A DNA stretch of 64,000 nt from Dysgonamonadaceae bacterium (GCA_031272075.1 JAISUK010000009.1:1-64000), one strand, 5' to 3'; numbered from the stretch's first letter, positions 1,479 to 64,000 are shown. Numbers and translations: made by a program. The notes: generated by a model not told the origin, from the letters alone.

Positions 1479-1543
1479 ATGAAACGAGCATGATTTTCAA
1501 ACATCCAAATTGAGGACAATAATGATATGCGAGTTCCATACGA
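1479..1543 (+). repeat. Leader repeat copy A (91% identical to 49723-49787)
   Basis: Direct comparison: 59/65 identical bases; sits between the GH42-like stop and the next ATG at 1564. Confidence 0.85.
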
Positions 1544-1563
1544 ACTAAAAAAAATATTGACGT

Positions 1564-2106
1564 ATGAAAAATTACAATCGTCGTGAATTTATCAAAGCTG
1601 CCGGTCTGCTGTATGGAAGTTTGTTGATTATTCCGTCATGCAAGCCGCTCTCCGGAAACAACTACCTGGTCTTTACGGAACAAGAAGCAGCATGCCTGAT
1701 TGCGTTATGCGAGCAAATCATCCCGGCAGATGAATTTCCGGGAGCCACGGATGCCGGCGTCATTCATTTCATCGACAAACAATCGAAACTTCGTTTCCCC
1801 AAAGAACAAATCTTGTTCAAAAACGGCATCGCTTCGTTGCAAGCCTGGTGTCGAGCGACGCACAACCGATTGTTTGAAGAATTGGATGTTCCTACGCAAA
1901 TCGCCATTATGCAATCCATGGAAAAAGACGAAATAAAATCCGACCTGTGGAAAATTGCTCCAAAAGATTTTTTTAACAAACTGCTGGCTCGAACCATGCA
2001 AGGATTTTACGGTTCTCCACGCCATGGAGGAAACAAAGATTATGTCAGTTTCAAAATGTTGAAATTGGATTATCCGTTGTTGATAGGGCAAAACAGGTAC
2101 TTGTAA
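1564..2106 (+). CDS. Gluconate 2-dehydrogenase subunit 3-type protein, TAT/lipoprotein signal
   Basis: N-terminus MKNYNRREFIKAAGLLYGSLLIIPSC (twin-Arg plus lipobox-like Cys); LCEQIIPADEFPGATDAGVIHFID is typical of Gluconate_2-dh3. Confidence 0.85.
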   Translation: MKNYNRREFIKAAGLLYGSLLIIPSCKPLSGNNYLVFTEQEAACLIALCEQIIPADEFPGATDAGVIHFIDKQSKLRFPKEQILFKNGIASLQAWCRATHNRLFEELDVPTQIAIMQSMEKDEIKSDLWKIAPKDFFNKLLARTMQGFYGSPRHGGNKDYVSFKMLKLDYPLLIGQNRYL

Positions 2107-3645: not shown

Positions 3646-5283
3646 ATGAAACACGTAAATGCAATTGTGATAGGTGCCGGTGCCGGCGGAGGCGTTGTAG
3701 CCAAAGAACTGGCGGTAAACGGATTTTCCGTCATCCTCTATGAGCGGGGCGGATGGCCTGACTACGACCGGCATATCAACGACGAACTGATCTCGCAGCG
3801 CGTGCAGGCGTTGGGCAACGCCTACGGTCCGGATTGGGTGCGACAGCCGCGTGTCATCGTGCATCCCGACGGACGACGTGAGACAATTTATCCCGACGAT
3901 GGACGCTACGGGCACAATGCCGCCTGCGTCGGTTCCGGCACGGTGAGCTATGGCGCCATGGCTTGGCGATTTATGCCTGAAGATTTCCGTCTGAAAAGCA
4001 TCTACGGCGCCGTGGAAGGTTCTACGCTCGACGACTGGCCGATCACTTACGACGATTTAGAACCCTATTATGTCAAAGCGGAATGGGAGGTAGGCGTCTC
4101 CGGCGATGAGACCAATCCATTTGCGGGATACAGGAGTAAGCCTTATCCGATGCCGCCCTTTGAGCAGAATCGGGAAGGAAAGGTCTTGTTTGACACCTGC
4201 AAACGGATGGGCCTGCACCCGTTCCCGATTCCGATGCTGCGCAATTCCGTGCCGTACAACGGTCGCGCCGGATGTGTCCGCAACCATACTTGTTGCGGCT
4301 ATGCCTGCCCCTGTGATGCAAAAAACGGCAGCCAGAATACCGTCATTCCGGTCGCTATTCGCACGGGAAACTGCCAAGTGAAAACCAACAGTATCGTTGC
4401 AGAAATCGTCATTGACGATAAAAGCCGCGCCACGGGCGTCCGCTATTTCGACGAAAACGGCAAAGGCCATACCCAGACTGCCGACATCGTCATCGTCGCC
4501 GGTGCTGCCACCGAAACGGCACGCCTGTTGCTCAATTCCAAATCCAAGCTGCATCCCAATGGTGCGGGCAACAACCACGACTGGGTCGGGCGCAATCTGC
4601 AAGCCCATGCCTACGTCAGCGCCTGCGGAATTTTCGACTTCGACATTCTTGATCATGCCGGACCCGGTGCTACAATGGCTATCTGTGATTATAGCCATCA
4701 CAATCCCGGAATCATCGGCGGCGGAATGTTGGCCAACGAGTTTTTCCTGCTGCCTTACGATTTTTCCCGCTTCCGTCCGAGTGGAGAGCCGCGCTGGGGG
4801 ATAGGTCACAAAGCCTTTCAGCGCAACAACTACTACCGGATAGCGCGGCTGGTAGGACCAATCCAGGAAATGCCGGTATTCGAATCGCGCGCTACCGTTG
4901 ACCCGTCGGTCAAAGACCACTGGGGCATCCCGGTGGTGGCGCTTTCGGGCGGCAGACATCCGTTAGACGTCGAACATGGACGCTTCCTCGCTACCAAAGC
5001 CGAAGAGATAATCAAAGAAGCAGGCGCCTTGAAGACCTGGATCAACATCCCCGGATTGTCTACAGTCCCCAGCGGCGGGCAGCACCAGGCCGGCACTTGC
5101 CGCATGGGAAACGATCCGAAATCCTCGGTTGTCAACAAGCATTGCCAGGTGCACGACATCGATAACCTGTTTATCGCCGACGGCAGCGTATTGGTCACCA
5201 ACGGCGGGTTCAATCCTGTGCTTACCATCATGGCAACAGCCTTTAGGACGGGGGAATATATCGTGAAAAACTTTAATAGTTGA
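3646..5283 (+). CDS. GMC-family oxidoreductase (gluconate/glucoside dehydrogenase-like large subunit)
   Basis: AIVIGAGAGGGVVAKELAVNGFSVILYERGG FAD motif; C-terminal GGQHQAGTCRMGNDPKSSVVN...NLFIADGSVLVTNGGFNPVLTIMATAFRTGEYI typical of GMC C-terminal domain. No own signal peptide. Confidence 0.9.
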   Translation: MKHVNAIVIGAGAGGGVVAKELAVNGFSVILYERGGWPDYDRHINDELISQRVQALGNAYGPDWVRQPRVIVHPDGRRETIYPDDGRYGHNAACVGSGTVSYGAMAWRFMPEDFRLKSIYGAVEGSTLDDWPITYDDLEPYYVKAEWEVGVSGDETNPFAGYRSKPYPMPPFEQNREGKVLFDTCKRMGLHPFPIPMLRNSVPYNGRAGCVRNHTCCGYACPCDAKNGSQNTVIPVAIRTGNCQVKTNSIVAEIVIDDKSRATGVRYFDENGKGHTQTADIVIVAGAATETARLLLNSKSKLHPNGAGNNHDWVGRNLQAHAYVSACGIFDFDILDHAGPGATMAICDYSHHNPGIIGGGMLANEFFLLPYDFSRFRPSGEPRWGIGHKAFQRNNYYRIARLVGPIQEMPVFESRATVDPSVKDHWGIPVVALSGGRHPLDVEHGRFLATKAEEIIKEAGALKTWINIPGLSTVPSGGQHQAGTCRMGNDPKSSVVNKHCQVHDIDNLFIADGSVLVTNGGFNPVLTIMATAFRTGEYIVKNFNS

Positions 5284-24386: not shown

Positions 24387-24442
24387 ATGGCCGCTACACA
24401 CAACTCCGCATCCCAACATAAATAAAAATAATATATTGACTT

Positions 24443-26926
24443 ATGAAACGACTAAATATATTGCTGTCCACACTACTGTTATGCGTGTCGGCAGGCTTGT
24501 ACTCAAACGAATGTGTCTCGTTTTCGCAGAAAGACAACAGTGTGATTTTCAATAACAATGACGGCTCGAAGTTGGCATTGACCTTTTGTAGCCCGTCGAT
24601 GATGAAAGTCTGGTTCTCGCCGGACGGGACATTTTCGCGAAACAATGAATCTTTCGCGGTTGTCAATGAACTATTGCAATCATTCGCCGTCAATGTCAAC
24701 GAACAACCTTCCTGTTACGAGATTTTCACCGGCGAACTGCGCGTCAGGGTGAACAAAAATCCACTTCAACTGCAATGCTTTGACAAATGGCAAAAGCTCG
24801 TCTTCAGCGATTTTGAGGACAAAGGCCATGTTGCAGATGCCAAAGCGGTCAAGGCGTACAAACTGCTGCGAAAAGACGAGGCATTTTTTGGCTTGGGAGA
24901 GAAAACCGGCAGCCTGAACCGGCGCGGCAAAGAATACAAAATGTGGAATAGCGATCGCCCCTGCTACAGTGTGACGGAAGACCCGCTGTATAAGAGCATT
25001 CCCTTTTTCCTCAGCAGCTACCGCTATGGCATTTTTTTGGACAACACCTATAAAACTGTATTCAAATTTGGCTCGGAATCAGATAATTACTACTCGTTTG
25101 AAGCGCCCGACGGGGCGTTTGTCTATTATTTTATTTTCGGGAAAGACTACAAAGAAATCCTGCAACAATACATCCGATTGACCGGACAGCCGGTGATGCC
25201 TCCGAAATGGGCATTGGGATTTGCCCAGTGCCGGGGGCTCTACACCAAAGAAAAACAGGCGCTGGAGATCGCAGCAGAGTTTCGGAAACGCCGGATCCCC
25301 TGCGACATCATTTACCAGGACATCGGCTGGGTGGAAGGACTTCAGTCGTTCGACTGGCGTCAAAATAATTATACGAATCCGAAAGCCATGACGGACTCGC
25401 TCGGCAAACAAGGGTTCAAAATGATTATCTCGCAAGACCCGGTAGTCTCCCAATCCACCGAAGCACAATGGAAAGAAGCCGACAAAGCGGGATATTTTGT
25501 GAAAGACAGTCGCACCGGCAAGTCGTACGACATGCCGTGGCCATGGGGCGGCAATTGCGGTGTGGTGGATTTTACGCTGCCTGAAGTGGCCGACTGGTGG
25601 GGTGCACTGCAACAAAAGCCGTTGGACGACGGGGTGCGCGGGTTCTGGACAGACATGGGCGAACCGGCCTGGAGCAACGAAGAAGACGCCGACCGACTGA
25701 ATATGCAACACCACCTCGGCTCGCATGCGGAAATCCACAATGTTTACGGATTGACATGGGATCAAATCGTTACCGAACAGTTTGAGAAACGGAATCCCAA
25801 CCGACGGCTTTTCCAAATGACCCGCGCGGCATTTGCAGGACTGCAACGCTATACTTTCGCATGGACAGGCGACAGCGGCAACGGCAACGATGTGCTTTCC
25901 GGTTGGGAACAGCTGGAAAACCAGGTCGTAATCGGCATCTCGGCGGGACTGGGCGGAATCCCTTTCTTCACTACGGACATCTCCGGCTATTGCGGCGACA
26001 TCACAGACTACCCTGCCACCGCGGAACTCTACACCCGCTGGATGCAGTTCGGCGTGTTTAATCCCCTCAGCCGTGCACACCACGAAGGCAATAATGCTGT
26101 AGAACCCTGGATGTTCGGCAGCGAAACGGAAAGAATTTGCAAAACAGCCATCGAATTGAAATACACATTGTTCCCCTACCTTTATTCGTATGCCCGCAAA
26201 GCTTACGACACCGGTTTGCCGATTCTTAGAGGCTTGTTTTTAGAATATCCGAATGACGGACAGGCGGTGAAAACAGAAAACCAGTTTCTTTTCGGAAGGG
26301 AACTGCTGGTGGCGCCGGTACTGAAAAAAGGCGAACGGGTGAAATCAGTCTACCTGCCGGAAGGAGAATGGATTGATTTCAATGATCAACTGACCACATA
26401 TCACGGAGGGCAAACGATTGCTTACCAAGCGCCGCTAGACGTCATCCCGATTTTCGTAAAAAAGGGATCGGTCATCCCTCAAATGCCTGTCATGCAATAT
26501 ATTCACGAAAAGAAAGACTACCCGTTGATTATAGCGATCTTCCCTGCCGCCGAAGGAGAGAAAGCCGAGTTTGAAATTTACGAAGACGATGGAGAAAGTC
26601 TCGATTATAAAAATGGACAGTGCGCGAAAACCGCCATTTCGTGCCTGACGGAGCCGTCGACATATACCACCGTTGTCCGCGTGGACGATCATCTTTACAA
26701 ACCATCTGATCATCGGAACTTCATCCTGGAATATCATCTCGATTCCTGTCCTAAAAAGGTATTAGTCAACCACAAAGCGGTAAAGAAAGTCAATAACGCC
26801 ACCCTGACCCAAATCCGAGAATCGAACTTCCAATCTACCGTCTGGTCTTGGGACGCGCATCAGCGTATCTGCCGGGTGAAAATTCCAGATACCAGAACGG
26901 GACTGGAGGTGAAGATGGAAATATGA
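24443..26926 (+). CDS. GH31 alpha-glucosidase
   Basis: GFWTDMGEPAW nucleophile region, RYTFAWTGDSGNGNDVL, FFTTDISGYCGDI, FNPLSRAHHEGNNAVEPW. Confidence 0.95.
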   Translation: MKRLNILLSTLLLCVSAGLYSNECVSFSQKDNSVIFNNNDGSKLALTFCSPSMMKVWFSPDGTFSRNNESFAVVNELLQSFAVNVNEQPSCYEIFTGELRVRVNKNPLQLQCFDKWQKLVFSDFEDKGHVADAKAVKAYKLLRKDEAFFGLGEKTGSLNRRGKEYKMWNSDRPCYSVTEDPLYKSIPFFLSSYRYGIFLDNTYKTVFKFGSESDNYYSFEAPDGAFVYYFIFGKDYKEILQQYIRLTGQPVMPPKWALGFAQCRGLYTKEKQALEIAAEFRKRRIPCDIIYQDIGWVEGLQSFDWRQNNYTNPKAMTDSLGKQGFKMIISQDPVVSQSTEAQWKEADKAGYFVKDSRTGKSYDMPWPWGGNCGVVDFTLPEVADWWGALQQKPLDDGVRGFWTDMGEPAWSNEEDADRLNMQHHLGSHAEIHNVYGLTWDQIVTEQFEKRNPNRRLFQMTRAAFAGLQRYTFAWTGDSGNGNDVLSGWEQLENQVVIGISAGLGGIPFFTTDISGYCGDITDYPATAELYTRWMQFGVFNPLSRAHHEGNNAVEPWMFGSETERICKTAIELKYTLFPYLYSYARKAYDTGLPILRGLFLEYPNDGQAVKTENQFLFGRELLVAPVLKKGERVKSVYLPEGEWIDFNDQLTTYHGGQTIAYQAPLDVIPIFVKKGSVIPQMPVMQYIHEKKDYPLIIAIFPAAEGEKAEFEIYEDDGESLDYKNGQCAKTAISCLTEPSTYTTVVRVDDHLYKPSDHRNFILEYHLDSCPKKVLVNHKAVKKVNNATLTQIRESNFQSTVWSWDAHQRICRVKIPDTRTGLEVKMEI

Positions 26927-29429: not shown

Positions 29430-30968
29430 CTATTCCGGCTTAGCGACGTAAGAAGTATTATCCGGCGAAAGCCCCCAATCGGGATTCAACGTAATGATAC
29501 CGTTGTCGATAGGAACGTTGAAATACTGGTCGTTGACCGGCGCAGAATAGGTTTTGTCACCTATGGTATGCGTGATGGTTGTTTTTGACCAGGGTTTTCC
29601 CGTATCGAGCGTATACCGTTTGATGTCCACGGTGCGTAAAAATGATTCAAAAGGCTGTTCCAGTCGCCGTTCTTTCAGGATTTCCACGAGCAATTGGTCG
29701 GCATTGAGCGAAGCGCCGTTCGTTAAGTCTGTTGAAGAGGCGTTGTCATAGCGGTATTTCCTCAAAAGATTCAGGTCGGCGAGTGCACTGGCCGGTTGTC
29801 CATTGCGGGCATAGGCTTCGGCGCGCATAAGCAGCAAGTCTGGATACGAAAGACCTTCATTGTAAATCAGTTTCGATCCGCGATAATTAAATTTCCTGAT
29901 TCCATCATTTCCCCAACCGTTATAGTTCAAGATAAAAAGTTTAAACCTCAGGTCATTTTTTGTATCAAACAATGAAAGGAAATCGTCCGAAACATAGTGA
30001 TTTTGACCTGTTACCGGGCTTACCCTGTACAACAGACTTTCGCGATTGTAAGCCTGACGGAAATTCAGGTCGCCGCCTTTATGCCGCAGATTCCAATAAT
30101 ATGCAGAGTCAATTCCTTCAGCCACAGTGACCGTTGTTTTGCTGTATTCAAAATCATTGAAATTATATATCAGATTGTCAACGCTGCCTTCCAGATTCAA
30201 AGCCAGGTTCCACGCCTCATCGGCATACTTGAGCATATTTTGCCAGTCGCGTTTGAACATGTAATACTGAGCATGCAGGGCTAACACCGCCGTTTTTCCT
30301 GCACGAGTGGGATTCCCTACCATTTCCGGAGCATCAAGCGCAGCGGTCAGATCCTGAAGCAGGAAATCGTAAATTTCGGCCACGGTATGCAAAGGAGGAT
30401 TGGGGGCAAGCGGAGATTCGGCTGTACGGTACGGAATCACTTTTTGATCGTTTGCTCCTGCCGGATTGTAGGGAGGACCATATACAAGCACCTGTTGCAA
30501 GTATTGCCATGCCCGTCCTGCTTTGGCTTCAGCAATCACTTCTTTGGCATGGTCGCTGTTTTTTTCGGCAGCCGAAAGATTGTCAATTCCTGCAATAACA
30601 TTGTTGAAATAACTGATCGCCCGATAGTTGTATGTCCAGAAATACTGTGCTGACACCGGATTGGAATAGGGCAGAGCGAAAATATAAGCGTGATAACGGT
30701 TGATGTTGGGATGCGTCGCATAATAAAGCGTTTCCGACAATCCCGTATCGAAAGTAATATTATCACCTAATAAAGCATAAAAACAGCCGCGGTTATTATC
30801 GAGAAAAAGATAATCATAAGTGTTAGAGTTATTCAGAAGATTTTCAAGTTCTACCACTTTCGTAGGAATCAGTTTACCTACCGGATCAACATCGAGAAAA
30901 TCCTGACAGGAGGTCTGAAACAGGATCAGACAAACCGCAATTATACTCGTTAATTTATTTGTTTTCAT
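29430..30968 (-). CDS. SusD/RagB-family lipoprotein
   Basis: LFQTSCQDFLDVDPVGKLIP; LSYPDLLLMRAEAYARNGQP; ILKERRLEQPFESFLRTVDIKRY. Confidence 0.95.
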   Translation of the reverse strand: MKTNKLTSIIAVCLILFQTSCQDFLDVDPVGKLIPTKVVELENLLNNSNTYDYLFLDNNRGCFYALLGDNITFDTGLSETLYYATHPNINRYHAYIFALPYSNPVSAQYFWTYNYRAISYFNNVIAGIDNLSAAEKNSDHAKEVIAEAKAGRAWQYLQQVLVYGPPYNPAGANDQKVIPYRTAESPLAPNPPLHTVAEIYDFLLQDLTAALDAPEMVGNPTRAGKTAVLALHAQYYMFKRDWQNMLKYADEAWNLALNLEGSVDNLIYNFNDFEYSKTTVTVAEGIDSAYYWNLRHKGGDLNFRQAYNRESLLYRVSPVTGQNHYVSDDFLSLFDTKNDLRFKLFILNYNGWGNDGIRKFNYRGSKLIYNEGLSYPDLLLMRAEAYARNGQPASALADLNLLRKYRYDNASSTDLTNGASLNADQLLVEILKERRLEQPFESFLRTVDIKRYTLDTGKPWSKTTITHTIGDKTYSAPVNDQYFNVPIDNGIITLNPDWGLSPDNTSYVAKPE

Positions 30969-30985
30969 ACGTCAATAATTTGTTT

Positions 30986-33900
30986 TTAAAATCCGAATTG
31001 TAAACCAAAATAATATTCTCGCGGGAAAGGCAGCGAAGTAAATGCCTGGTCAATATATCCACCGCTCGTACGGGCAAGATTGTATTCAAAACTTTCAGGA
31101 TCGATGTCTGTACCTTTCGCCGTAAAGGTGAGTAAATTACGTCCCTGCAAATAGATTCTGGCCCCGGACAACCCCAATTTGCCGGTCACGGATTGGGGCA
31201 GATTATAGGATAGTGTCAGGTCGCGCAGTTTGCAGAAACTGGCATCACCCACGAGCACATCGACAAACGGGAAATAGAATGCGTCCATATTCCAAGACGA
31301 TAACACGGGATAAATGGTCGTTGCTTCATCGCCGGCTTGGCGCCAGCGTTGCGATACGAAGCGACTTTGTATGTTTGATCCGGTGAAAGCGTCTTTGCGA
31401 TAGGAATGTCCAAGTTTAGCGATAAACATGAACGACAGGTCGAAGTCTTTATAGGTGAAACTGTTTGTTAATGAAAGGTCGAATTTCGGACGGGTAGTGC
31501 CTTGATAAACAACATCCGCAGTTCCCAAGTTTGCGATGGGGACAATTGTGCCGTCGGCTTTATAAGCTTGAGCGGCTCCTTGATCATTCAGTCCTGCGAA
31601 CCGTCCTCCCCAAAACGAAGCGGCGGGATATCCCGCAACGTGTACCGCGCCCGGATCGCCTGCTGTCCCTTGATAATAGTAGGAAGCATAATTGCGTGTG
31701 GCATTGTAGGTCAGTACTTTGTTGTCGTTGTATGCGAAGATGTGCGTGATGTTCCATCTGAAATCGCCATGACGCAAAACATTGGCGCTGATTGCTATTT
31801 CCAATCCTTTGTTCGACATACTTCCGATATTTTTTGTCACACTCGTGAAGCCGGTTGTAGCATCAACGATATCGGGAGCGAGCAGGTCGGTGCTCTTTTT
31901 GCTGTAGTAATCGATGGAAATTTTCAAGGCATTATTGAGCGTACTCAGGTCCAGGCCAAGATTTGTCGTTTGTGTCTTTTCCCAACGCAATTCATCATTC
32001 GGAGGGGAAGAGATGCCGTAGGAAGTCCCCTGGGCAGTCGTGTTGTACGAACCTGCGCTCAATATCATAAAAGGACCCTGATTCAGTGCGATATTTCCGC
32101 TGACGCCAAACGATCCGCGCAAATGCAACCGGTTTAGGAAATCCACGTCGAAAAAACTTTCTTCACTCACTTTCCAAGTTCCGCCGACCGACCAGAGCGG
32201 ACGGTAACGGTATTTCGGACTTGTTCCGAAGAAATTGGTAAGATCGAGGCGAATGCTGCCGCTTAAGATATAACGGTTGTTGTATTCGTAAGAACCGTTT
32301 CCGTAATACGACTCAAATCGGTTGTCCAGAAGGCTGTAACTGCCGTTGCTTGGCGAAAAGCCTTGCCAGGTATACATGTCGCTGTAATACGTGTAGGCGT
32401 TGATACCCTTTATATCTACCGGTACAAATGTGCCGGCAGTCGGATTGAACCCCATGCGAGTAGCATAAGTATTGTTATTATATGTCATACGGCGCATTTC
32501 GTAACCTGCAAGCAGGTTGACGCGATGTAACCTGTCTTGAAAATCCTGATTGTAATTGACTTGCCCGCGAAGAGTCCAACTTTCGTTGATATTTCGGCGT
32601 TCATTAATGATCGCTCCTTCAGGGATATAATGGTTTATGGGATTTGACTTCGATGTAGATGCGTTATAGGCATAGCGTACCGTGTATGAATCTTCGTCGG
32701 AAACCTGCTTCCATACAAAATTGCCGCGTTGCCAGTTGCCGCCTATTTCCGCAGTTAGCCCGTCGATGATGTTGAATTTGAGAAATCCGGTGAGTCGACT
32801 TTGAAAGTCTTCGGAAGTAGTACGTTCTCGATCCATTTCGTCAAGCAACACGTAATCTAAATTTTTAACGCCGGGGATGGTGCTGAATAATTGTTCTTGT
32901 GCTTGCCAGCCGGGTATCCAGAGTTTTGTACGTTTGCCGGAGGCGTCCACAATCTGGGTATAGGGAGTAAATTGCGACTGCTCTGTTGTGAAAGTAAACA
33001 ATCCCGAAGTATTGCCTGCAAGCATATCGTTTGCATTGTTTGTCGGTTCAAAGGTGGTGGAATAGGCGATATTCACGTTGGCTCCAAGGGTAATATATTT
33101 ATTCAGCTTCCATTCATCTTTGAAATCGACAACCGCACGGGTATTGCCGGAATTGATGAAATGATCTTCAGTATCGACAATATTAAAAACCATGTTGTAG
33201 GTATGCTTGGCTGTGCCGCCATTGAGCGAAACATTGTGCTGGTGACTGAGTTTCGGGCGAAATAAATATTCTTGAGCTTGACCGATATAATCCCTTTTTC
33301 TGAGCGCATCCAATTGCGCTTGCGCTTGTGCGCTTGTGATAGCGCCCGCTCTTTCTTGAATAAGAATATACGCGGCTTCCGTAGCGGCTGAGTTCAGGTC
33401 TGAAACAGGATTTTGATTGAACAAGTCGATTTCGGCATCGATATAATCTGAAGCACTGGACTTGTGCAGGTTGTGCAAGTCGGGTTCCGAAACGATACTG
33501 AAAGTTCCACGGTAAGAGATCTTCGGATCGCCTTCTGTTCCCTTTTTGGTTGTGATAACAATTACGCCGTTGGCAGCACGCGAGCCGTAGATTGAGGCGG
33601 CCACAGCATCTTTCAGAACGGTAATGCTTTCAACATTGTTGGCATTGATATTTTCAAAAGTTCCGTCACGATAAGAAAAATAAGCATCGTTCATGGTGGC
33701 GTCAACGGGATAACCGTCGATAACCAAAAGCGGGGTTTTGACCGCGGCAAAGGTTGATACGCCACGAATTTCCAAGTTTCCGTTGTTGTCCATCGTCAAT
33801 CCGGCAACCTGACCTTCGAGCATTGATTTCAGGTCGCGCTGGAGTTTGTTGTCGATGGTCTTGGTAGGGATGATCCCAAAAGCGCCGGTCGCCCTTTCGC

Positions 33901-42134: not shown

Positions 42135-44143
42135 GCTCCCACCCGAAATGTCCTGCCCGGCATCGGATACGACCGCACCACCTCATATTGTGCATTAAAA
42201 AGATTCAGACATTCCGCCGTGAGTCTCCATTTCATTTTCCCTACAGCGATGGTTTTAACCAACGAGATGCCCTGATCGGCATACGCTTCCATGTGGTATT
42301 CCGGGCGGTTGATTCGCTCGTAATATCTTTTCCCGCAATACAATAGCGTGTAATTCGCCTCCAGCCAGGGCGTTTCGATTCCCAATATGCCCGACAGTGA
42401 ATGAATGGGCGTGTAAGGCAGTTGTTGGTTATACATTTTTGTATCCGGCAACGTTCTGTCTGTCACTCGCTGATAGGTATATACGCTTTTCAGATGCGCT
42501 GAAAAATCCGCGAAAACCAGCCGTGTCTCCAGATTAAGGTCTGCGCCTTTTATCAATACCTTACCGTAGTTCTGAACCGACCAGAGGAACATGCTGTTGA
42601 CCGGCAGGGCGACGATTTTATTTTCGATGCGGTTGAGGTAAGCGTCCAGCGAAATGCCAATGGTTTGCACAATCGATTTTGCGCCGATGATCCAGGTCAG
42701 TCCCAAGTCGTATTGATCGGCATTTTCCGGCTTCAGGTCTGCGGGTGGCACGCTGGAATAATAGAGATCGCCAAAAGTAGGCATCCGGAAGGTATGCTTG
42801 TAATAGCCGCGAATCCGCAGCGGCAATTTGTCCGACAGTTGCCACGAGAATCCGGTATATGGCGAAATCCGGCGTTGCGTGTCCGAGCGATTGTCCAGTT
42901 TTGCTTTGTCGGTGGTGGAATTTCCCGTAATACTGGTCGTCAAAACCAGATAGCTACATTCATATTTTGCCGAAAAAGAATTTAACCAAGTGATGCGATA
43001 CGGGAAAACACAGTTGCTGAGGTTGTTGCTCAGGTTGCCGTAGGCGTAGTCCGTTGCCCATGCCAGCGAGAAAACAGGCGAAAGCGAGTAGCGGAAAGTC
43101 GCGTTTGTGTAGTATTCCCGTTGGAAATATGCGTTTTCTTTGCGTCCGTTGGGGTAGATCGACCGTATATCGACATAATCCATATCCGAGTAACTGAATT
43201 TGAGGTTGGTCATGAAATCCAGCCGGTCGGTCAGCGACTGTGTATAATTTGCCTGGGAGAACACATTCCTGACGTCCAGCCGCTCACCGGAATAGGAATT
43301 GTAATAGGTGGCAGGACCCGGAAGACCCCGGTCGTCATGATGATAACAGGCTTTCAATGCCAACGATCCTCCGTTTCGGAAGCGTCCGTACAGGTTGGCT
43401 TCTAATTTGCGGTTGTCCACGTCCGAATTATTCCGTTTTTCGACTGAACTGGAGTCGTTGTTATAGCCATAATACTGTCTGAATTTGTAGTCGCCGTTGG
43501 TTTTCAGCCATTCGGCGGTAAGTCCGAGCGACCAGGACCGATTCAGGTTGTGCGCGATTGACAGCGAAGGATTGATCAATCCGAGCGACCCGGTTTTGAG
43601 CGAGGCTTTTATCCGGTTGCGGCTCGCAGTGTCCGGACCGTTTGCTGTGATGATTTGCAATGCGCCGGCGGATGCCATAGCGTGCGCTGTCCGGAAGAGG
43701 TCGTCGCTTTCGCCGGTATTGAGTTGTATCATCGAGACATTGTCGAGCGAAAATCTGCCCAAGTCGATCTGTCCGGTTTGGTAGTCGGAAACGGGAATCC
43801 CGTCGTAGGAGATGGAAATGTAATTCGCCCCAAGGTTCCGCACGGAGATGGTTTTCAAACCGCCGATTCCGCCGTAGTCTTTTACCTGAACGCCGGAGAA
43901 AAATTTGACGGCATCGGCGACTTCCAGCGCGTTGATTTTCTCCAGTTCACTGCTTTGCAACAGTTGCAACGGAGCGGTAGACCGCGAAAATGATGGTCGC
44001 CCGATTGCCGACACCTCCACCTCCTGCAGATTCCGAACGATTTTTGAGGTATCTGCAGTCTCCTGCGCCGTCACGCCTGCCGACGTACAATACGCTAGGA
44101 AAAGAACAAGGCTGTTTCTGAAATATTGATTTTGAAATATCAT
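42113..44143 (-). CDS. TonB-dependent receptor, BtuB-like
   Basis: Plug motif VEVSAIGRPSFSRSTAPLQLLQSSELEKINALEVADAVKFFSGVQVKDYGGIGGLKTISVRNLGANYISISYDGIPVSDYQTGQIDLG; riboswitch directly upstream. Confidence 0.9.
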   Translation of the reverse strand: MIFQNQYFRNSLVLFLAYCTSAGVTAQETADTSKIVRNLQEVEVSAIGRPSFSRSTAPLQLLQSSELEKINALEVADAVKFFSGVQVKDYGGIGGLKTISVRNLGANYISISYDGIPVSDYQTGQIDLGRFSLDNVSMIQLNTGESDDLFRTAHAMASAGALQIITANGPDTASRNRIKASLKTGSLGLINPSLSIAHNLNRSWSLGLTAEWLKTNGDYKFRQYYGYNNDSSSVEKRNNSDVDNRKLEANLYGRFRNGGSLALKACYHHDDRGLPGPATYYNSYSGERLDVRNVFSQANYTQSLTDRLDFMTNLKFSYSDMDYVDIRSIYPNGRKENAYFQREYYTNATFRYSLSPVFSLAWATDYAYGNLSNNLSNCVFPYRITWLNSFSAKYECSYLVLTTSITGNSTTDKAKLDNRSDTQRRISPYTGFSWQLSDKLPLRIRGYYKHTFRMPTFGDLYYSSVPPADLKPENADQYDLGLTWIIGAKSIVQTIGISLDAYLNRIENKIVALPVNSMFLWSVQNYGKVLIKGADLNLETRLVFADFSAHLKSVYTYQRVTDRTLPDTKMYNQQLPYTPIHSLSGILGIETPWLEANYTLLYCGKRYYERINRPEYHMEAYADQGISLVKTIAVGKMKWRLTAECLNLFNAQYEVVRSYPMPGRTFRVGAKLEIRS

Positions 44144-44177
44144 CGCTTTTTTCCTCGAAAGCTACTGAAATCAGTAT

Positions 44178-44392
44178 CATGCGACGGCAGGTCTTCTGAC
44201 TTACTTCATCTTCGAAACGCCCTTCCCGCCCTCTTCGGAGCAGTGGATTTGAGTATTGTTTCTCCAATTTTCAAAAACGATTCGTCATTCGTAATTGAAC
44301 GAAGTTCACAGCAGCGGGACTGTCCGGGATTTGCACCCGGTTCCCTTTTAATTCTTTCCCGGAAATGGGAAAGAAGACCGTTACGGCGACAA
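44178..44392 (-). ncRNA. Cobalamin riboswitch
   Basis: Minus strand: GGGAACCGGGTGCAAATCCCGGACAGTCCCGCTGCTGTGAAC ... AAGTCAGAAGACCTGCCGTC, the canonical cobalamin-element conserved boxes; precedes btuB-like gene. Confidence 0.95.
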
Positions 44393-44476
44393 AGGTAAAA
44401 ACTTTTTTTGTATTCCATGCGTCAATTGAAAAGATTTTCTTATCTTCGCAGGAAGGAAAGCAAAAAATCATTACGT

Positions 44477-45409
44477 ATGAAGCTCATAGACAATATTGTT
44501 TTTAATCCGGATGTTTATTTGTTGCCGCATTACAAAATAAGCCCGTTCCGGACGGAGCATGCTTTTGCCAACCGCAAGATAGCGGAAAAGCACTGTCCGG
44601 CATTGGATTTTTTTCTTGAGGATGATTACGATTCCATCGTTACGGTCAACGCCCGTAAAGCCATTGCCCTGGCTTTGGAGTCGCTGGGCTTGCAGCCGGA
44701 CGATGTTGTCACCATACTGACCACATCGGGCAATTTCTATATCAGCAGTTGTGTCACCCGCACCATCGAGCAATACTGTCAATGGGACAGGGAGATGCAA
44801 CCGAAGACCAAAGTCTTGCTGGTAAACCATGAATTTGGGTTCCCGTATGAAAATCTCTCTCAACTCAAAGAATACCGTTTGCCGATTATTGAAGATTGCG
44901 CCCATGCTTTTTTCTCACAAAATAAAGAAAACTCGGTAGGTCGGGTCGGGGATTTTGTCGTTTACAGTCTGCCGAAGATCATGCCGATGCAGCTGGGAGG
45001 CATTTTGCGTGTGCGCAAAAGCGCCAATCATAAAGCGATCACCTATCGAGAGCCGGAACCGGTGCGCAATTACATCACTGCCTGCTTCAATCATTATTTG
45101 CAGGATAGAGATGCGATAATCTGCAGACGCATAGAAAATTACGGCTATTTGTCAACAATTTTCAGCGCTTGCGGTTTGACGCCCCGCTTTGCGCTCGAAG
45201 CGAATCAGGTGCCCGGCGTTTTCATATTTAATATAGATAACGTCGATATAAATGGTGAAAATATAAAGCATCTCTATTGGAATAACGGCATTGAATCGAG
45301 TGTATTTTATAAAGAGAACGCCGTATTCATCCCCGTTCATCAGTATCTGACGAAAGACGACATGGATTTCTTTCTGCGGGTATATCAGAGTTTCCTCATT
45401 CGGGAATGA
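44477..45409 (+). CDS. DegT/DnrJ/EryC1/StrS-like PLP aminotransferase-fold protein
   Basis: LPIIEDCAHAFFSQNKENSVGRVGDFVVYSLPKIMPMQLGGILRV (PLP Lys context); start at ATG 44477 with ttacgtATG context. Confidence 0.75.
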   Translation: MKLIDNIVFNPDVYLLPHYKISPFRTEHAFANRKIAEKHCPALDFFLEDDYDSIVTVNARKAIALALESLGLQPDDVVTILTTSGNFYISSCVTRTIEQYCQWDREMQPKTKVLLVNHEFGFPYENLSQLKEYRLPIIEDCAHAFFSQNKENSVGRVGDFVVYSLPKIMPMQLGGILRVRKSANHKAITYREPEPVRNYITACFNHYLQDRDAIICRRIENYGYLSTIFSACGLTPRFALEANQVPGVFIFNIDNVDINGENIKHLYWNNGIESSVFYKENAVFIPVHQYLTKDDMDFFLRVYQSFLIRE

Positions 45410-49660: not shown

Positions 49661-49722
49661 TTGCCGGTTGGGATAAACCCATTAAATTAGCGGCAAAATT
49701 AAATATCATTTTTATTTCACGT

Positions 49723-49794
49723 ATGAAACGAGCAAGATTTTCAAACATCCAAGGTGATGACAACAATGACATGCGAGTTCCATACGACCAATGA
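49723..49794 (+). CDS. Short leader ORF, 23 aa (MKRARFSNIQGDDNNDMRVPYDQ); leader repeat copy B
   Basis: ATG with cacgtATGAAA context, TGA stop 18 nt before the susC ATG; 91% identical over 65 nt to 1479-1543. Confidence 0.5.
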   Translation: MKRARFSNIQGDDNNDMRVPYDQ

Positions 49795-49812
49795 AAAACA
49801 AATTATTGACGT

Positions 49813-52800
49813 ATGAAAAAAATCTTTTTTGTAATTACATTGTTCTGCTTGGTTGTAGCTCATATTCAAGCAGAAGTGAAAACCACGGAGTCCGTACAGC
49901 AGCGCGAAGTGACAATTAGGGGCGTAGTGACGGATTCTTCCGGAGAACCCATCATTGGTGCGATCGTAACTGTCAAAGGCACGACTTCTGCTACCATAAC
50001 GGATGCAGAAGGACAATTCAGTCTGGGGACAAAGGCGGCAAACCCGGAAATTACAGTTGCTTACCTCGGTTACAAGACAGAAACCGTGAGCGTTGTCGGC
50101 AGCGACCCATTAAGTATCGTCCTGATGGAATCCGAGCAGTTGATTGATGAGGTGGTCGTGGTCGGTTACGGCACTCAAAAACGCCTCACAATGACTTCGG
50201 CGGTTGCTTCCGTCAAGGGAGCGGAATTGACCGTATTGCCCGCCCCGCGTCTCTCGACCAATATCGGCGGTAAAGTTGCCGGAGTGATTACCTTTCAGGC
50301 AGATGCAGCGCCGGGCAATGATGGCGCTTCCATTTATGTCCGAGGCTCATCACCCCTGATTTTGGTCGATGGCGTAGAGCGTCCGGGCGATCGGGTTAAT
50401 CAGGAAGATATAGAATCGGTATCAGTCCTGAAAGATGCCGCTGCAGTCGCTCCTTACGGATTGAAAGGCGCTAACGGAGTGATCCTTATCACAACCAAAC
50501 GCGGCTCTGCCGGTAAAATTACAGCTACCTACAAAGGCGAGTTGAGTTCACAAAAACCGATGAGTATCCCTGAATTTATGGGTTCAGCAGATTATTTTGA
50601 ATTTCGCAATAAAGCATTGGAAATGGACGGTCTGACGGAGCAAATGATGCCTGCCGAAGAAATAGCCTTGTACCGCGACGGCACTGACCCGGATCGTTAC
50701 CCCAACACCGACTGGATAGGAAATTATATGAAAACATCCAAAGCCACGAAACACAATGTCACCATTTCCGGCGGTACGGACAAGATTCAGGCGTTCGTTT
50801 CTTTGGGCTATGTTTTCCAAAACAGTATGTTCGGCGGACAGGATTATCGCCGTTATACCGTGCGCTCCAATGTCGATATTCAGGCGACATCTACCACGAA
50901 AGTCTCATTGGATAATTCTTTCATGAGGGATATTTTAAGTATGAGCGGACTGGGGGCAAGCCAAATTATGGAGCGCCTCTACCGCGCCGTTCCCGAAGAA
51001 CCTGATGTTTACAGCAATGGACTTTCGGCATTCCAATCTTCTCTTGGAATCAGTATGCACGAAGCGATGTACAATCGCGGCATATACGACGAACAGAACG
51101 AAATCTCGACATCGAACATTACCGTCGAACAGCAATTGCCTTTTGTCCAGGGACTCTCGGCAAAAATAGCCTTCAATTACGATAAACAGCACAAGGATTT
51201 GAAAAATTGGATATTGCCTTTGTCGTATTATAATCTGACGCCGTCGGGCGAATACGAAAGGATCGATTTGTCGGAAACAAGCAGTCCTACACTGGGACAG
51301 GAATACAAACGCTGGGATTGGTACACTTTCAACGGCAGTTTGAACTACAACCATGTATTCGGCAAGCACGCCATTACCGCTTTGGCGCTCTTTGAAGCGC
51401 GTTGGACGGAATCTTTGACAACCACCACCGGCAAAACGGAATTTGATTTCCTGATTCCGGAACTGGATAGGGGCACTTCCGACAAAGAAAAATGGACAAT
51501 GAGCGGAAATTCCGGCGAAACAGCCCAATGGGGCGCCGTCGGACGTGTCAGTTACAATTACAATCAAAAATATTTGCTGGAACTTGCCGGACGCTACGAT
51601 GAAACATATCTGTATGCACCCGGTAAAAGGGGCGCATTCTTCCCCTCAGCTTCCCTTGGTTGGCGCATTTCTCAAGAACCCTTCATGGCATTTTCTCGCG
51701 GCAGTATCGATAATCTAAAATTACGGTTCTCATACGGAAAATCGGGTAATCCTGTCGGCTCGGCATTCTCATATATGTCGTCTTATACGCCCGCCAACAG
51801 CTATGTCTGGGGAACCGGCAGCACCGAAACCCGCGTGCAAGGCATCTATGCTACATTGGAGGCCAATCCCGATTTGACTTGGGAGACTGTCTGGAAAACC
51901 GATGTGGGGTTCGACCTCAATATGTGGAGAGGCCTCTTTGGGTTGGAATTTGATTTTTATCGCGAAAAACGCAGTGACAAGATTGTAAGCCCTACGGCTG
52001 TGGTTCCTGCGGAATACGGTATCGCCCTGGCACAAGAAAATGCCGGCGAAGATGTTCGTTGGGGTACGGATATCACGCTTACAAACAATACCAAAATTGG
52101 TGAAAATCTAAGGCTTTCCAATTCATTTATTTTTACCTATACCCGCCACCAAATTATCGAGAATCACGAAAATCAAGGTACGCTCTACAATCCCCGACGC
52201 CGTACCACCGGCTTGGCGTCTTCGCAGATTTGGGGATACCGTTCGGCAGGCTTGTTCAAAGATGAAGAAGAAATAAAAAATTGGGCATTTCAAGATGCAA
52301 GTACTTTGCCGGGCGATATAAAATACGTCGACATCAACGGCGACGGCAAAATCGACAGCGAAGATATCGTACGCATCGGACTTTCGAGTATTCCGCAAGT
52401 GATGTGGGGATACAATCTGAAAGCCACCTGGAAAAATTTCGACTTGGCGCTGTTTTTCCAAGGTACAGGTCGTTCAAACTATTATCTTGGAACGGCAGAC
52501 CGCGGCGTCCGTCGTCCATTTGCAGACGGCAAGGCGCGAGTCGATCATTACAAATCCTGGACAACGGATAATCCTGATCCCGATGCGCCCTATCCGCGCT
52601 TGCGTTCGACAAATTTTGCGATGAATTATGTAGCCTCAGATTACTGGGTGATCAATTCTGCATATACAAAACTCAAATCAATAGATATAGGCTATTCAGT
52701 TAATCCCAATTGGATTCGCAAAGTCGGCATGTCAAATCTGCGCCTTTCGGCAAATTTCTACAATGTTTGGACAATTTATACCAATGCTCACAAGGATTTC

Positions 52801-52875
52801 GACCCCGAAGCGCAACAATTCACTGCCTATCCGCAGCAATTCATTTCAACGATTGGTCTAACAGCAACCTTTTAA
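49813..52875 (+). CDS. SusC-family TonB-dependent outer membrane transporter
   Basis: VTIRGVVTDSSGEPIIGAIVTVKGTTSATITDAEGQFSL; VVVVGYGTQKRLTMTSAVASVKG; VSVLKDAAAVAPYGLKGANGVILITTKRG. Confidence 0.97.
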   Translation: MKKIFFVITLFCLVVAHIQAEVKTTESVQQREVTIRGVVTDSSGEPIIGAIVTVKGTTSATITDAEGQFSLGTKAANPEITVAYLGYKTETVSVVGSDPLSIVLMESEQLIDEVVVVGYGTQKRLTMTSAVASVKGAELTVLPAPRLSTNIGGKVAGVITFQADAAPGNDGASIYVRGSSPLILVDGVERPGDRVNQEDIESVSVLKDAAAVAPYGLKGANGVILITTKRGSAGKITATYKGELSSQKPMSIPEFMGSADYFEFRNKALEMDGLTEQMMPAEEIALYRDGTDPDRYPNTDWIGNYMKTSKATKHNVTISGGTDKIQAFVSLGYVFQNSMFGGQDYRRYTVRSNVDIQATSTTKVSLDNSFMRDILSMSGLGASQIMERLYRAVPEEPDVYSNGLSAFQSSLGISMHEAMYNRGIYDEQNEISTSNITVEQQLPFVQGLSAKIAFNYDKQHKDLKNWILPLSYYNLTPSGEYERIDLSETSSPTLGQEYKRWDWYTFNGSLNYNHVFGKHAITALALFEARWTESLTTTTGKTEFDFLIPELDRGTSDKEKWTMSGNSGETAQWGAVGRVSYNYNQKYLLELAGRYDETYLYAPGKRGAFFPSASLGWRISQEPFMAFSRGSIDNLKLRFSYGKSGNPVGSAFSYMSSYTPANSYVWGTGSTETRVQGIYATLEANPDLTWETVWKTDVGFDLNMWRGLFGLEFDFYREKRSDKIVSPTAVVPAEYGIALAQENAGEDVRWGTDITLTNNTKIGENLRLSNSFIFTYTRHQIIENHENQGTLYNPRRRTTGLASSQIWGYRSAGLFKDEEEIKNWAFQDASTLPGDIKYVDINGDGKIDSEDIVRIGLSSIPQVMWGYNLKATWKNFDLALFFQGTGRSNYYLGTADRGVRRPFADGKARVDHYKSWTTDNPDPDAPYPRLRSTNFAMNYVASDYWVINSAYTKLKSIDIGYSVNPNWIRKVGMSNLRLSANFYNVWTIYTNAHKDFDPEAQQFTAYPQQFISTIGLTATF

Positions 52876-54708: not shown

Positions 54709-54750
54709 ATGCTTTTATTATAGATTATTATTTAAACAAATTATTCACGT

Positions 54751-55119
54751 ATGAAAAAGATATTGTATTTTTTGATAACAATTTGCCTGCTTCCGTTTTG
54801 GAGCTGCGACGAAAAAGTCGACATCGAAATCCCGGAAACGGTGGATTTGGCAAATATTACAGGTGTAACGGTTTATGGTTCAGACCTCAAAAGTATTACC
54901 GCAACAACGGTTTTGGATGCCGACGCGCTCACGGCTACCGTTACAACAAAAGCGGGAACGGACATAACAAATCTGAAAGTTTCGCTTACAATCTCATCGG
55001 GAGCGACAGTGACACAATCTTTTGGAACCGAATTTAGGGATTTTACCTCACCCCAATCGGTTACAATCGTTTCTCCGAGCAAAAAGATAATAAATGTCTG
55101 GACTGTTAATATTAAATAA
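54751..55119 (+). CDS. Small PUL lipoprotein (DUF5018-like)
   Basis: Lipobox LLPFWSCDEK; short beta-rich domain with ITGVTVYGSDLKSITATTVLDADALTATVTTKAGTDITNLKVSLTISSGATV. Confidence 0.6.
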   Translation: MKKILYFLITICLLPFWSCDEKVDIEIPETVDLANITGVTVYGSDLKSITATTVLDADALTATVTTKAGTDITNLKVSLTISSGATVTQSFGTEFRDFTSPQSVTIVSPSKKIINVWTVNIK

Positions 55120-61489: not shown

Positions 61490-62886
61490 TGCGTTTTGCC
61501 TTTTCTGTTCTCTTCCAAAGCTTCGGCAATGTCGGTGATTTTTGTTTCCGATAGTGGATAGAGGGAGATAAAAAATACCGACAGGAGGGTTCCGATAGCC
61601 GGGAGTAGGCTCATCATCAGGCGAATGCCGGTTTTAGCCAATTCGGTCTGCTCCATATTCGGACGAAAGCCGTAAAATCCCAGTATCCAGCCAGCCAATG
61701 CGCCGCCTAGCGCCCAACCGAATTTTTGCGACATTGAAGAGGAAGAAAAAATCAGTCCCGTAGCGCGGCGTCCGGTTTTCCATTCCGAATAGTCGGCAAT
61801 ATCGGCATACATTGACCAGAGCAATGGGAAGATGCTTCCTGCGCATGCGCTGATCAATACTTGCAAAGACATCATCAGCACAATATCGTCTTTACCGAGA
61901 AAAAAGAACAAAATACTGAAGACGGTGGCGAACGCCATCGCCAGGAGATAAGTCCGCTTTTTCCCGATTTTGTTGGAAACAGGGGTGACAAAAAGGATTC
62001 CGATGATGTTGGCCGCTTGTCCCAATACCAGGAAAATGGTGGTCAGAGAAAAAGAACTGCCGATGAATCCCAGGTGTAACGTATCGATGTCTTGTGCAAA
62101 ATATTTGAAGTAATAGGCGGCAGCGCCGTCGCGTATGGAATTGAAAATCAGTGCGGAAACCCCTGCGCCAAGCAGAATCCACCAAGGACGGTTTTTCCAC
62201 AGGTCGCGGATATCTTCGCGAAAACTGTTTTTCCCTTCCTTGAGGGGTTTTACCCGTTCTTTAGTCCAAGAGAAACAACCGATAAAAAAGAGTGCTGCAA
62301 TCAGGGCGAACACCGTCATTGTCAATGTCCAACTGTGTGCAAAATCGATTGTGCTTGCATTATCGGGACTAAAGAAGCGGAGCAGCGGTTCGACGAGGAT
62401 CAAAACCAGAATACTGCCGGCGAAGGCAAAAATCATGCGATATGATGACAGTTCCGTGCGGATTTTGGGGTTCCCGGAAATGACGCCCAACAAAGAAGCA
62501 TAGGGCACATTGATCAGGGAATAGATCATCATCATGAGCGAATAGGTGATGTAGGCATAGCAGATTTTTCCGCTGATGCTTAGATCTGGAGTGGTGAAAG
62601 TCAGGATTCCCATGATGCCGAATGGGACGGCGATCCAGAGGATGTAGGGGCGGAATTTTCCCCAACGGGTTTGCGTTCGGTCGGCAATCACCCCGACCAC
62701 CGGATCGAAAAACGTATCCCATACCCTGGTAATCAAAAACATGGTTCCGGCCACTGCGGCCGGGATTCCGAATACATCTGTATAGAAGATGAGCAGATAC
62801 ATCCCGAACAATTTCCAGAACATGGAGGAAGCGGCATCTCCCAAGCCATAGCCGATTTTCTCTTTTAGTCGAATTGTGTCTTTCAT
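61486..62886 (-). CDS. GPH-type MFS sugar transporter
   Basis: About 12 hydrophobic segments; RVWDTFFDPVVGVIADRTQTRWGKFRPYILW motif; 4-bp overlap with epimerase gene. Confidence 0.93.
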   Translation of the reverse strand: MKDTIRLKEKIGYGLGDAASSMFWKLFGMYLLIFYTDVFGIPAAVAGTMFLITRVWDTFFDPVVGVIADRTQTRWGKFRPYILWIAVPFGIMGILTFTTPDLSISGKICYAYITYSLMMMIYSLINVPYASLLGVISGNPKIRTELSSYRMIFAFAGSILVLILVEPLLRFFSPDNASTIDFAHSWTLTMTVFALIAALFFIGCFSWTKERVKPLKEGKNSFREDIRDLWKNRPWWILLGAGVSALIFNSIRDGAAAYYFKYFAQDIDTLHLGFIGSSFSLTTIFLVLGQAANIIGILFVTPVSNKIGKKRTYLLAMAFATVFSILFFFLGKDDIVLMMSLQVLISACAGSIFPLLWSMYADIADYSEWKTGRRATGLIFSSSSMSQKFGWALGGALAGWILGFYGFRPNMEQTELAKTGIRLMMSLLPAIGTLLSVFFISLYPLSETKITDIAEALEENRKGKTQ

Positions 62887-62889
62887 ACG

Positions 62890-64000
62890 TCAATGATTTG
62901 TTGCTTTCAGGAAAGCCTTGTTTTTGTCGATCAATTGGATGATCTGTCGTACCGAAGCCGACGAACGGAGTCCGTCTTTCGGGGTGTTCATGCAATAATC
63001 CACCAATTGCTTGATGGTAGAAGTCGCCACATGCAGCCGGGTGTCGGAAGAAGCATAGTAGATGAATACCCTCCCGTCGTCTGCTATCCATCCATTAGCA
63101 AACAACACATTGGAGACATCTCCGACGCGTTCTTCTTCTACCGACGCCATGAAATAGCCGCCAGGTTCCGCAATCGGCACCGAAGGGTCTTCCAGTGCGG
63201 TCATATACAAATACAATACATAGCGCAATCCGGCGGCGCAACTGCGTACACCGTGCGCCAGGTGCAGCCAGCCCTTGTCTGTCTTGATGGGCTGGGGGCC
63301 TTCGCCGTTTTTCATCTCCTTGATGGTGTGATAATAGCGTTGGTTAATGATTTTTTCTTCTTTGATTTCGGCATGGCAGATGTCGTCGATCAGCGACCAT
63401 CCGATTCCTCCGCCGTTGCCGGCAACGATAAAGCCGTCTTGCGGACGGGTATACAAGGCATATTTTCCATGGACAAATTCCGGGTGAAGCACCACATTGC
63501 GTTGTTGACTGTGCGCTTTCAGGTCGGGAAGCCGATCCCACCGAATCAGGTCTTTCGTTCGGGCGATTCCGGCCGAGGCGATTGCGGAAGACAAATCTCC
63601 CGGTTCGGCATTCGGATCTCTCTTCTCTACGCAGAAAATGCCGTAGACGTAGCCGTCTTCATGCGCCGTCAGGCGTATGTCGTAAAGGTTCGTTTCTTGA
63701 TCGTCGTTTTCCGGCATGATCACCGGATAGTCCCAAAAACGGAAGTTGTCGATGCCGTTTGGACTTTCGGCGACGGCAAAAAAAGATTTTCGGTCTACAC
63801 CTTCCACACGCGCCATCACCAGGAATTTGTCTTTCCACTTGATAGCGCCGGCGTTCATGGTTGAGTTGCATCCGATTCGTTCCATCTGCAGCGGGTTGGT
63901 TACCGGATTCAGATCATAACGCCATGCAATCGGAACATGTTCGTGGGTCAATATCGGATTTTTGTAACGGGTGAAGACGCCATTGCTTTTTTTAATGGGG
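62890..64000 (-). CDS. GH130 mannosylglucose phosphorylase-like, 5'-truncated by window edge
   Basis: [77 protein letters not shown]. Frame is open to base 64000 ([20 protein letters not shown]). Confidence 0.92.

Follow-up and report, generated by a model that had tools for sequence, protein, structure and literature searches.

Start-codon sites in the window and the element behind them

The stretch of DNA analysed here (the window) comprises 64,000 nucleotides of a Dysgonamonadaceae bacterium (GCA_031272075.1 JAISUK010000009.1:1-64000), in which genes for unrelated proteins (Gluconate_2-dh3, GH31, SusD, a SusC-type receptor and MFS) share a near-identical sequence before their start codons. 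The shared motif, TTGACGTATGAAA, occurs exactly at four sites: 1557 on the plus strand, 30963-30975 on the minus strand, 49806 on the plus strand and 62881-62893 on the minus strand. A first-pass annotation had picked out this recurrence on both strands; every site quoted there is present, and the observation is confirmed as both real and bigger than described. Alignment of the genomic contexts revealed that most motif sites form the right end of a longer element, ATGAAACGAGCATGATTTTCAAACATCCAAGTTGATGACAATAATGACATGCGAGTTCCATACGACCTTTTAAAAAnAAATTATTGACGT, followed by ATGAA. By this comparison, the start-codon motif forms the 3' end of a dispersed element roughly 90 nucleotides (nt) long.

The window holds two full-length copies. 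The first (49723..49817, plus strand, 95 nt) precedes a gene for a SusC-type TonB-dependent receptor (49813-52875). Its first ATG, at 49723, had been read as the start of a leader mini-ORF (open reading frame), and its last ATG, at 49813, is the start codon of the receptor. Both of these contexts exist, but they are the two ends of one element and not separate sites. The heptamer TTCACGT adjoining the first ATG (49716..49722, plus strand) may be a short form that predates the insertion, or a relic of an earlier copy. The second full-length copy (1479..1568, plus strand) stands before the Gluconate_2-dh3 gene (1564-2106), where the motif noted at 1564 is present as the 3' end of that copy. The remaining convincing sites in the window are short forms without the element.

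The element is laid out as ATGAAACGAGC, a variable hairpin, GCGAGTTCCATACGACC, an A/T-rich linker and TTGACGT, after which ATGAA follows. The flank 5' of its first ATG shows no similarity between copies, the upstream ORF opened by this ATG varies among copies in frame and length, and the apical part of the hairpin is swappable between subfamilies. A search with nhmmer returned 135 matches, 125 near full length and 10 partial, in the 1.82 Mb of the 3.02-Mb genome that were read in pieces for this search and for the gene-position counts given below; a sequence-only model yielded 144 matches genome-wide (about 140 copies). Partial copies are anchored at one end (L192, L179), and one copy is internally deleted (L131). 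At L192 (13054-13085, minus strand), the first 32 bases of the element encode the N-terminus MIFKHPR of a 785-residue ORF that starts at an internal element ATG. Copies at L217, L232, L237 and L255 contain an extra apical-loop insert (about TTACGAAGTAATCGACGTAGTCAACAATGA), which suggests a second repeat nested in the element. The element has no Rfam match (Rfam 15), either in the window or at 11 related loci; five core sequences were each absent from the open literature searched, and a search of the literature on start-codon repeats in Bacteroidales found nothing relevant.

The frequency of the motif exceeds chance, as the annotation had supposed. At up to two mismatches, TTGACGTATGAAA has 10 matches in the window against 2.55 expected, a count reached by none of 100 shuffles, and at up to one mismatch it has 227 matches in the 3.02-Mb genome against 2 for a reversed control pattern. 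Since the same pattern gives only 1-31 matches per genome in 60 relatives, three congeners among them, the exact letters are specific to the source genome. An ATG lies directly 3' of 62 of the 157 TTGACGT occurrences in 0.81 Mb, nearly always as ATGAA. Paralogy fails to account for the motif because the downstream genes are unrelated, a point on which the first reading was right; it was also right that the motif is tied to start codons and is not simply a promoter, an explanation we rejected given the fixed distance to the ATG and the location of some sites within operons.

To place the copies relative to genes, we used a simple codon-usage caller (1352 genes in 1.82 Mb), whose crudeness makes the following counts approximate. 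In 93 of 125 cases a called gene takes its start codon from a near-full copy, 68 of them exactly at the called start and 25 in frame nearby. A further 31 are intergenic, mostly 14-215 nt before a gene on the same strand, and one overlaps another gene. For 120 of 123 copies the next gene downstream shares the copy's strand, compared with 384 of 585 (66%) random intergenic ATGAA sites. Outside elements, ATGAA is found at 385 gene starts, at 623 intergenic positions and 5045 times within genes.

Pairing at the start codon and the short forms

The strongest structural signal joins the interior of the element to its end. In the receptor copy, the internal guide CATACG (49781..49786, plus strand) is complementary to CGTATG (49810..49815, plus strand), which is made up of the last three element bases and the start codon. 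This helix, stem 2, is paired to 98.6% in 59 aligned copies, three of its pairs are changed on both sides (29 cells), and its covariation score was reached by none of 500 shuffles. Sliding the partner by 1-3 columns either way lowers pairing to 0.3-58.2%. An alignment-free count agrees: of 145 copies in other genomes, 120 have a triplet after CCAT that is fully complementary to the triplet before ATGAA. In 2000 shuffles the mean was 69.8 and the highest count 83, a comparison that overstates significance because copies related by descent are not independent. Such kinship does not affect how many distinct compensated triplet types there are, and these include ACG/CGT, ATG/CAT, CTG/CAG, CCG/CGG, GTG/CAC and ATA/TAT. 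Because the last three guide bases covary with the pre-ATG triplet, the guide is complementary to the start-codon target.

The annotation had also offered the motif as the target of a post-transcriptional regulator. That proposal gained no support: a small-RNA target was not found, and the covarying partner sits within the same element.

Upstream of the guide, the arm AACGAGC (49727..49733, plus strand) can pair with GCGAGTT (49773-49779) through tandem G.A. In relatives the two arms are replaced together, as AACCCGC/GCGGGTT or AACCGGT/ACCGGTT, and these replacements suggest a stem 1. For two other subfamilies, the predicted RNA folds exceed shuffled sequences in stability (z -2.75 and -4.14).

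The short forms lie before genes that lack the element. In the window, AAACAAATTATTGACGT (30969..30985, minus strand, 20.6 bits), between a SusC stop and the SusD start at 30968, is identical to the last 17 bases of the element. AAACAAATTATTCACGT (54734..54750, plus strand) precedes an ORF at 54751 without a Pfam match, and CAACAAATCATTGACGT (62887..62903, minus strand) an MFS sugar transporter gene starting at 62886. Most of the sites first quoted are convincing, but that at 44477 (TTACGT) is unsupported and that before the GH31 gene at 24443 (TTGACTT) is weak, its short form ATATATTGACTT (24431..24442, plus strand) having one heptamer mismatch. Two further features of the window are distinct from these sites. 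A cobalamin riboswitch (44169-44397, minus strand, 93.9 bits) lies upstream of a minus-strand gene starting at 44143, and tandem seven-base repeats (GTTAGAA / AGAAGTT), not part of the element, stand directly 5' of the starts at 3646, 5312 and 42079 (minus strand).

In 1.8 Mb, an element-less TTGACGT-like heptamer lies upstream of 42 of 385 genes starting with ATGAA and of only 2 of 774 with other ATG starts. None of these 42 short forms has a left-end remnant of the element within 80 nt. A heptamer also adjoins the first ATG in 22 of the 125 full copies, short forms in relatives carry their own letters (L105, L106, L126), and queA and a mannose-1-phosphate guanylyltransferase gene have a short form here and none in congeners. 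The short forms appear to be partial products of the element or its remnants.

The short forms bear on whether many genes could have reached an optimal non-Shine-Dalgarno initiation context independently. The A/T-rich linker suits Bacteroidota starts, and the 42 sites without an element would fit such an origin. However, the letters are genome-specific, with congeners favouring TGTACGT or TTATCGT, and the heptamer requires ATGAA. Moreover, initiation in Bacteroidota proceeds without Shine-Dalgarno pairing and is favoured by an A at -3 and by low structure (PMC6847099), whereas position -3 is C in 55 of 59 aligned copies. As a full account this explanation is refuted by the 90-nt element, and we consider it very improbable, although it could hold for some short forms. 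Pairing with ribosomal RNA was likewise rejected, as was an initiation signal of a generic kind, since the heptamer varies by genome and covaries with an internal partner. The stand-alone conserved initiation element or enhancer that the annotation had put forward was not borne out: the motif is the end of a structured element, and the letters before the ATG differ in relatives. With C at -3 and a start codon able to pair in a helix of 6 bp that closes off a large A/T-rich loop, the element is not an obvious enhancer, and its effect on translation may be neutral or tuning.

Probable mobility, a proposed mechanism and the search for an enzyme

On comparison between genomes, the repeat appears to behave as a mobile element. 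Among 20 source-genome orthologs of genes that bear the element in relatives, one has it and two were scored as having a short form only. A clean empty site, cut exactly at the ATG, was found where an element-bearing gene of G024 (L049), with the element taken out, is set against its ortholog in the source genome (L141): the sequence runs continuously through GAATT|ATGA, with nothing lost or gained. ATGAA stands at both ends of the element, and the empty site fits a retained target with an equal element end and a 5-base duplication alike. The other ortholog pairs are too diverged for an equally clean junction. At feoB the element is missing in three congeners, and the source genome's own leader between a promoter-like box and the ATG differs too, which the comparison leaves unaccounted for. 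The nearest relative of a source-genome copy lies within the same genome for 124 of 125 copies (mean distance 0.144 within the genome and 0.378 to other genomes), and the copies in congeners G001 and G003 belong to mixed subfamilies. Exact head-to-tail tandems occur in the source genome, and the single-contig genome G245 contains three 131-bp units.

These comparisons also weigh on the idea of a cis-regulatory RNA leader kept by selection at a regulon, in which the internal CAU would pair with the first AUG or with the gene AUG, and translation of the upstream ORF would control the gene. Sense orientation, a fixed place at start codons, a covarying stem 2 that spans the start codon and the two stable subfamily folds would all be expected of such a leader. 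A conserved regulon sits poorly with an element present at 1 of 20 orthologs, with unrelated target genes whose enrichment in signal peptides is not significant (p=0.059), and with a consensus fold that in the source genome is no better than shuffles (z -1.29). Nor are the frame and length of the upstream ORF conserved, on which ground a conserved leader peptide was rejected as well. We regard a regulatory leader as quite unlikely.

Our preferred interpretation, to which we assign a probability of roughly 0.78, is that the motif constitutes the 3' end of a mobile element, non-autonomous and some 90 nt long, which inserts before ATGAA, mostly at gene starts and in sense orientation. The fixed ATGAA target and the complementary guide suggest base-pair-directed insertion. 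The guide (CAT+NNN), whose complementarity to the last three element bases and the target ATG rests on the covariation, would recognise the target ATG(AA) through this pairing in single-stranded nucleic acid. In the sequence of the copies, the former 5' leader stops at the first ATG of the element, where a tiny upstream ORF forms, and the gene retains its ATGAA start behind a new A/T-rich leader that came with the element, so that it is not disrupted. In the mRNA, the pairing of guide and target would enclose the start codon in a weak helix of 6 bp. The mobilising enzyme would presumably act in trans, and may have been lost from the source genome or lie in its unassembled part, given that the assembly is 93% complete. 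The earlier interpretation is thereby partly supported: its suggestion of a microhomology joint for gene cassettes came nearest to the truth, but the supposed joint is the end of a mobile element.

Several results weigh against this interpretation. The source genome yielded no Y1 transposase (PF01797), no reverse transcriptase (PF00078) and no IS110-type transposase (PF02371); the last was not found in 8 of 10 other genomes tested either, and Y1 was not found in element-bearing G001 or in G200 and G078, which also bear the element and are nearly complete. No gene-carrying copy of the element was found. Movement is deduced from sequence, with one fully clean empty site, and the model leaves the 42 short element-less forms without an account. 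Formal covariation of stem 1 is weak, exceeding shuffles for percent paired only, and the source genome's consensus fold is not clearly more stable than shuffles as RNA (z -1.29) or DNA (z -1.27).

Among the enzymes considered, Y1 genes are present in 22 of 26 element-bearing genomes, none of them seen with the element at both ends. One Y1 gene in G002 (L068 1-1155, G002:C210) does have the element at its start, but was rejected as the mobiliser since its transposon has REP-like flanks (repetitive extragenic palindromic sequence) of its own; the element is placed there just as at other genes. An adjoining second copy of these flanks without a transposase gene makes up, with the first, a REP-like transposon and its non-autonomous derivative. 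An IS110-type mobiliser was rejected because PF02371 is absent in the source genome, and 5'-truncated products of reverse transcription because copies of intermediate length hardly occur and the search for a reverse transcriptase gave no match.

Spread might instead have required no dedicated enzyme, copies arising by template switching or single-strand annealing at ATGAA microhomology during replication or repair. The fruitless enzyme search fits this, as do the one-end-anchored partial copies, the short forms, the internally deleted copy and the tandems. However, guide-end covariation over many genera, together with one shared structure, favours a specific recognising factor, and near-full copies far exceed partial ones (125 against 10). 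We think this route unlikely.

Within the genus and the family, relatives of the element precede unrelated genes, and across the order they occur in 71 of 294 sampled genomes and 58 of 180 genera. Copy numbers per genome from this order-wide search are lower bounds, the counts having been capped. G128 contains 76 matches (some of them contig-end foldbacks), G200 27, G245 11 and G226 5. Named genomes with the element belong to Dysgonomonadaceae, Paludibacter, Parabacteroides sp. 52 and PF5-6, Prolixibacteraceae, Lentimicrobiaceae and Azobacteroides, in a search that needed the exact core and includes a few chance matches in unrelated bacteria. Judging by N-terminal sequences, some copies precede essential genes (for example those for ribosomal protein L36 and adenylosuccinate synthetase), and the initiation region supplied by the element must therefore work. 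Six exact matches in viral contigs all lie outside the element context, and viral carriers were rejected. Many G128 contigs (L384-L391) terminate in a shared foldback, composed of half an element in inverted orientation and a complete one ending in ATGAAAGATAGGTT, which is probably an assembly artefact caused by the repeats; these palindromic junctions were rejected as ends of an autonomous copy, as they share one identical tail and look like such artefacts. A lone copy in G032 (L042, G032:C53) lies near the source genome's own subfamily (87 bits), with no other detected in that genome, possibly through interspecies transfer or binning contamination. In a Dysgonomonadaceae metagenome-assembled genome (L285, 875-1075), the Bacteroides small RNA BTnc060 has a match of 62.4 bits, well below the gathering score.

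More tentatively, and at slightly less than even odds, we propose that Bacteroidales harbour start-codon-homing elements order-wide, whose guide pairs with ATG(AA), whose landing on starts is harmless and brings a new leader with a covarying helix, and whose enzyme is not yet recognised. If true, hundreds of genes per genome would have their translation initiation rewired by such elements. Targeting of start codons without gene disruption would be a new combination of mobility and host tolerance, and would alter initiation regions genome-wide in a phylum whose translation does not depend on Shine-Dalgarno sequences. Start-codon motifs in Bacteroidota should also be viewed with caution, for they may be repeat ends and not initiation signals. 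Thanks to the guide-end covariation, the idea of targeting can be tested directly.

Comparison with known systems

The element resembles Rfam cis-regulatory leader RNAs as a structured 5' leader in sense orientation; it differs in having no Rfam match and in positions that are not conserved between orthologs (1 of 20). With the Kozak-like context of Bacteroidota it shares an A-rich leader upstream of the start codon, whereas C at -3 and the possible helix over the start codon set it apart. The hallmark enzymes of IS110/bridge RNA systems and of retroelements (PF02371 and PF00078, respectively) are absent from the source genome.

Miniature inverted-repeat transposable elements mobilised by DDE transposases are likewise small, non-coding and of high copy number, and identical 5-6 bases (ATGAA) stand at both ends of the element described here. 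However, neither of its ends (ATGAAACGAGC and ...TTGACGTATGAA) is an inverted copy of the other, so there are no terminal inverted repeats, and the repeated flank is constant, unlike a variable target duplication. The similarity to REP sequences is closer and comprises high copy number, genome-specific subfamilies and an imperfect hairpin with a guide at its antisense 5' foot. Here, though, the guide is ATGGAA and not a GTAG-type tetranucleotide, and whereas REPs are extragenic, these copies are sense-oriented at start codons, with no link to a gene for TnpA-REP, which mobilises REPs.

The closest working analogy is offered by the IS200/IS605 family, membership of which we do not claim. IS608 inserts 3' of a tetranucleotide selected through guide pairing (PMC5934647), and the guide of IS200/IS605 and REP elements is found immediately 5' of the foot of the hairpin (PMC6006769, PMC8266576). 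On its antisense strand, our element has the order target TTCAT | linker, guide ATGGAA, hairpin and TTTCAT, an order shared with IS200/IS605, which places its guide 5' of the hairpin foot and complementary to the target flank. Differences nevertheless exist: IS200/IS605 members have a subterminal hairpin at each end, whereas this element has one hairpin plus the guide-end pairing; six or more bases pair, three of them inside the element; the target is mostly a start codon; and no Y1 gene was found in the source genome, nor one carrying the element's ends elsewhere. Both nonetheless lack terminal inverted repeats, combine a hairpin with an internal guide complementary to a short target, and lie beside that fixed target in one orientation.
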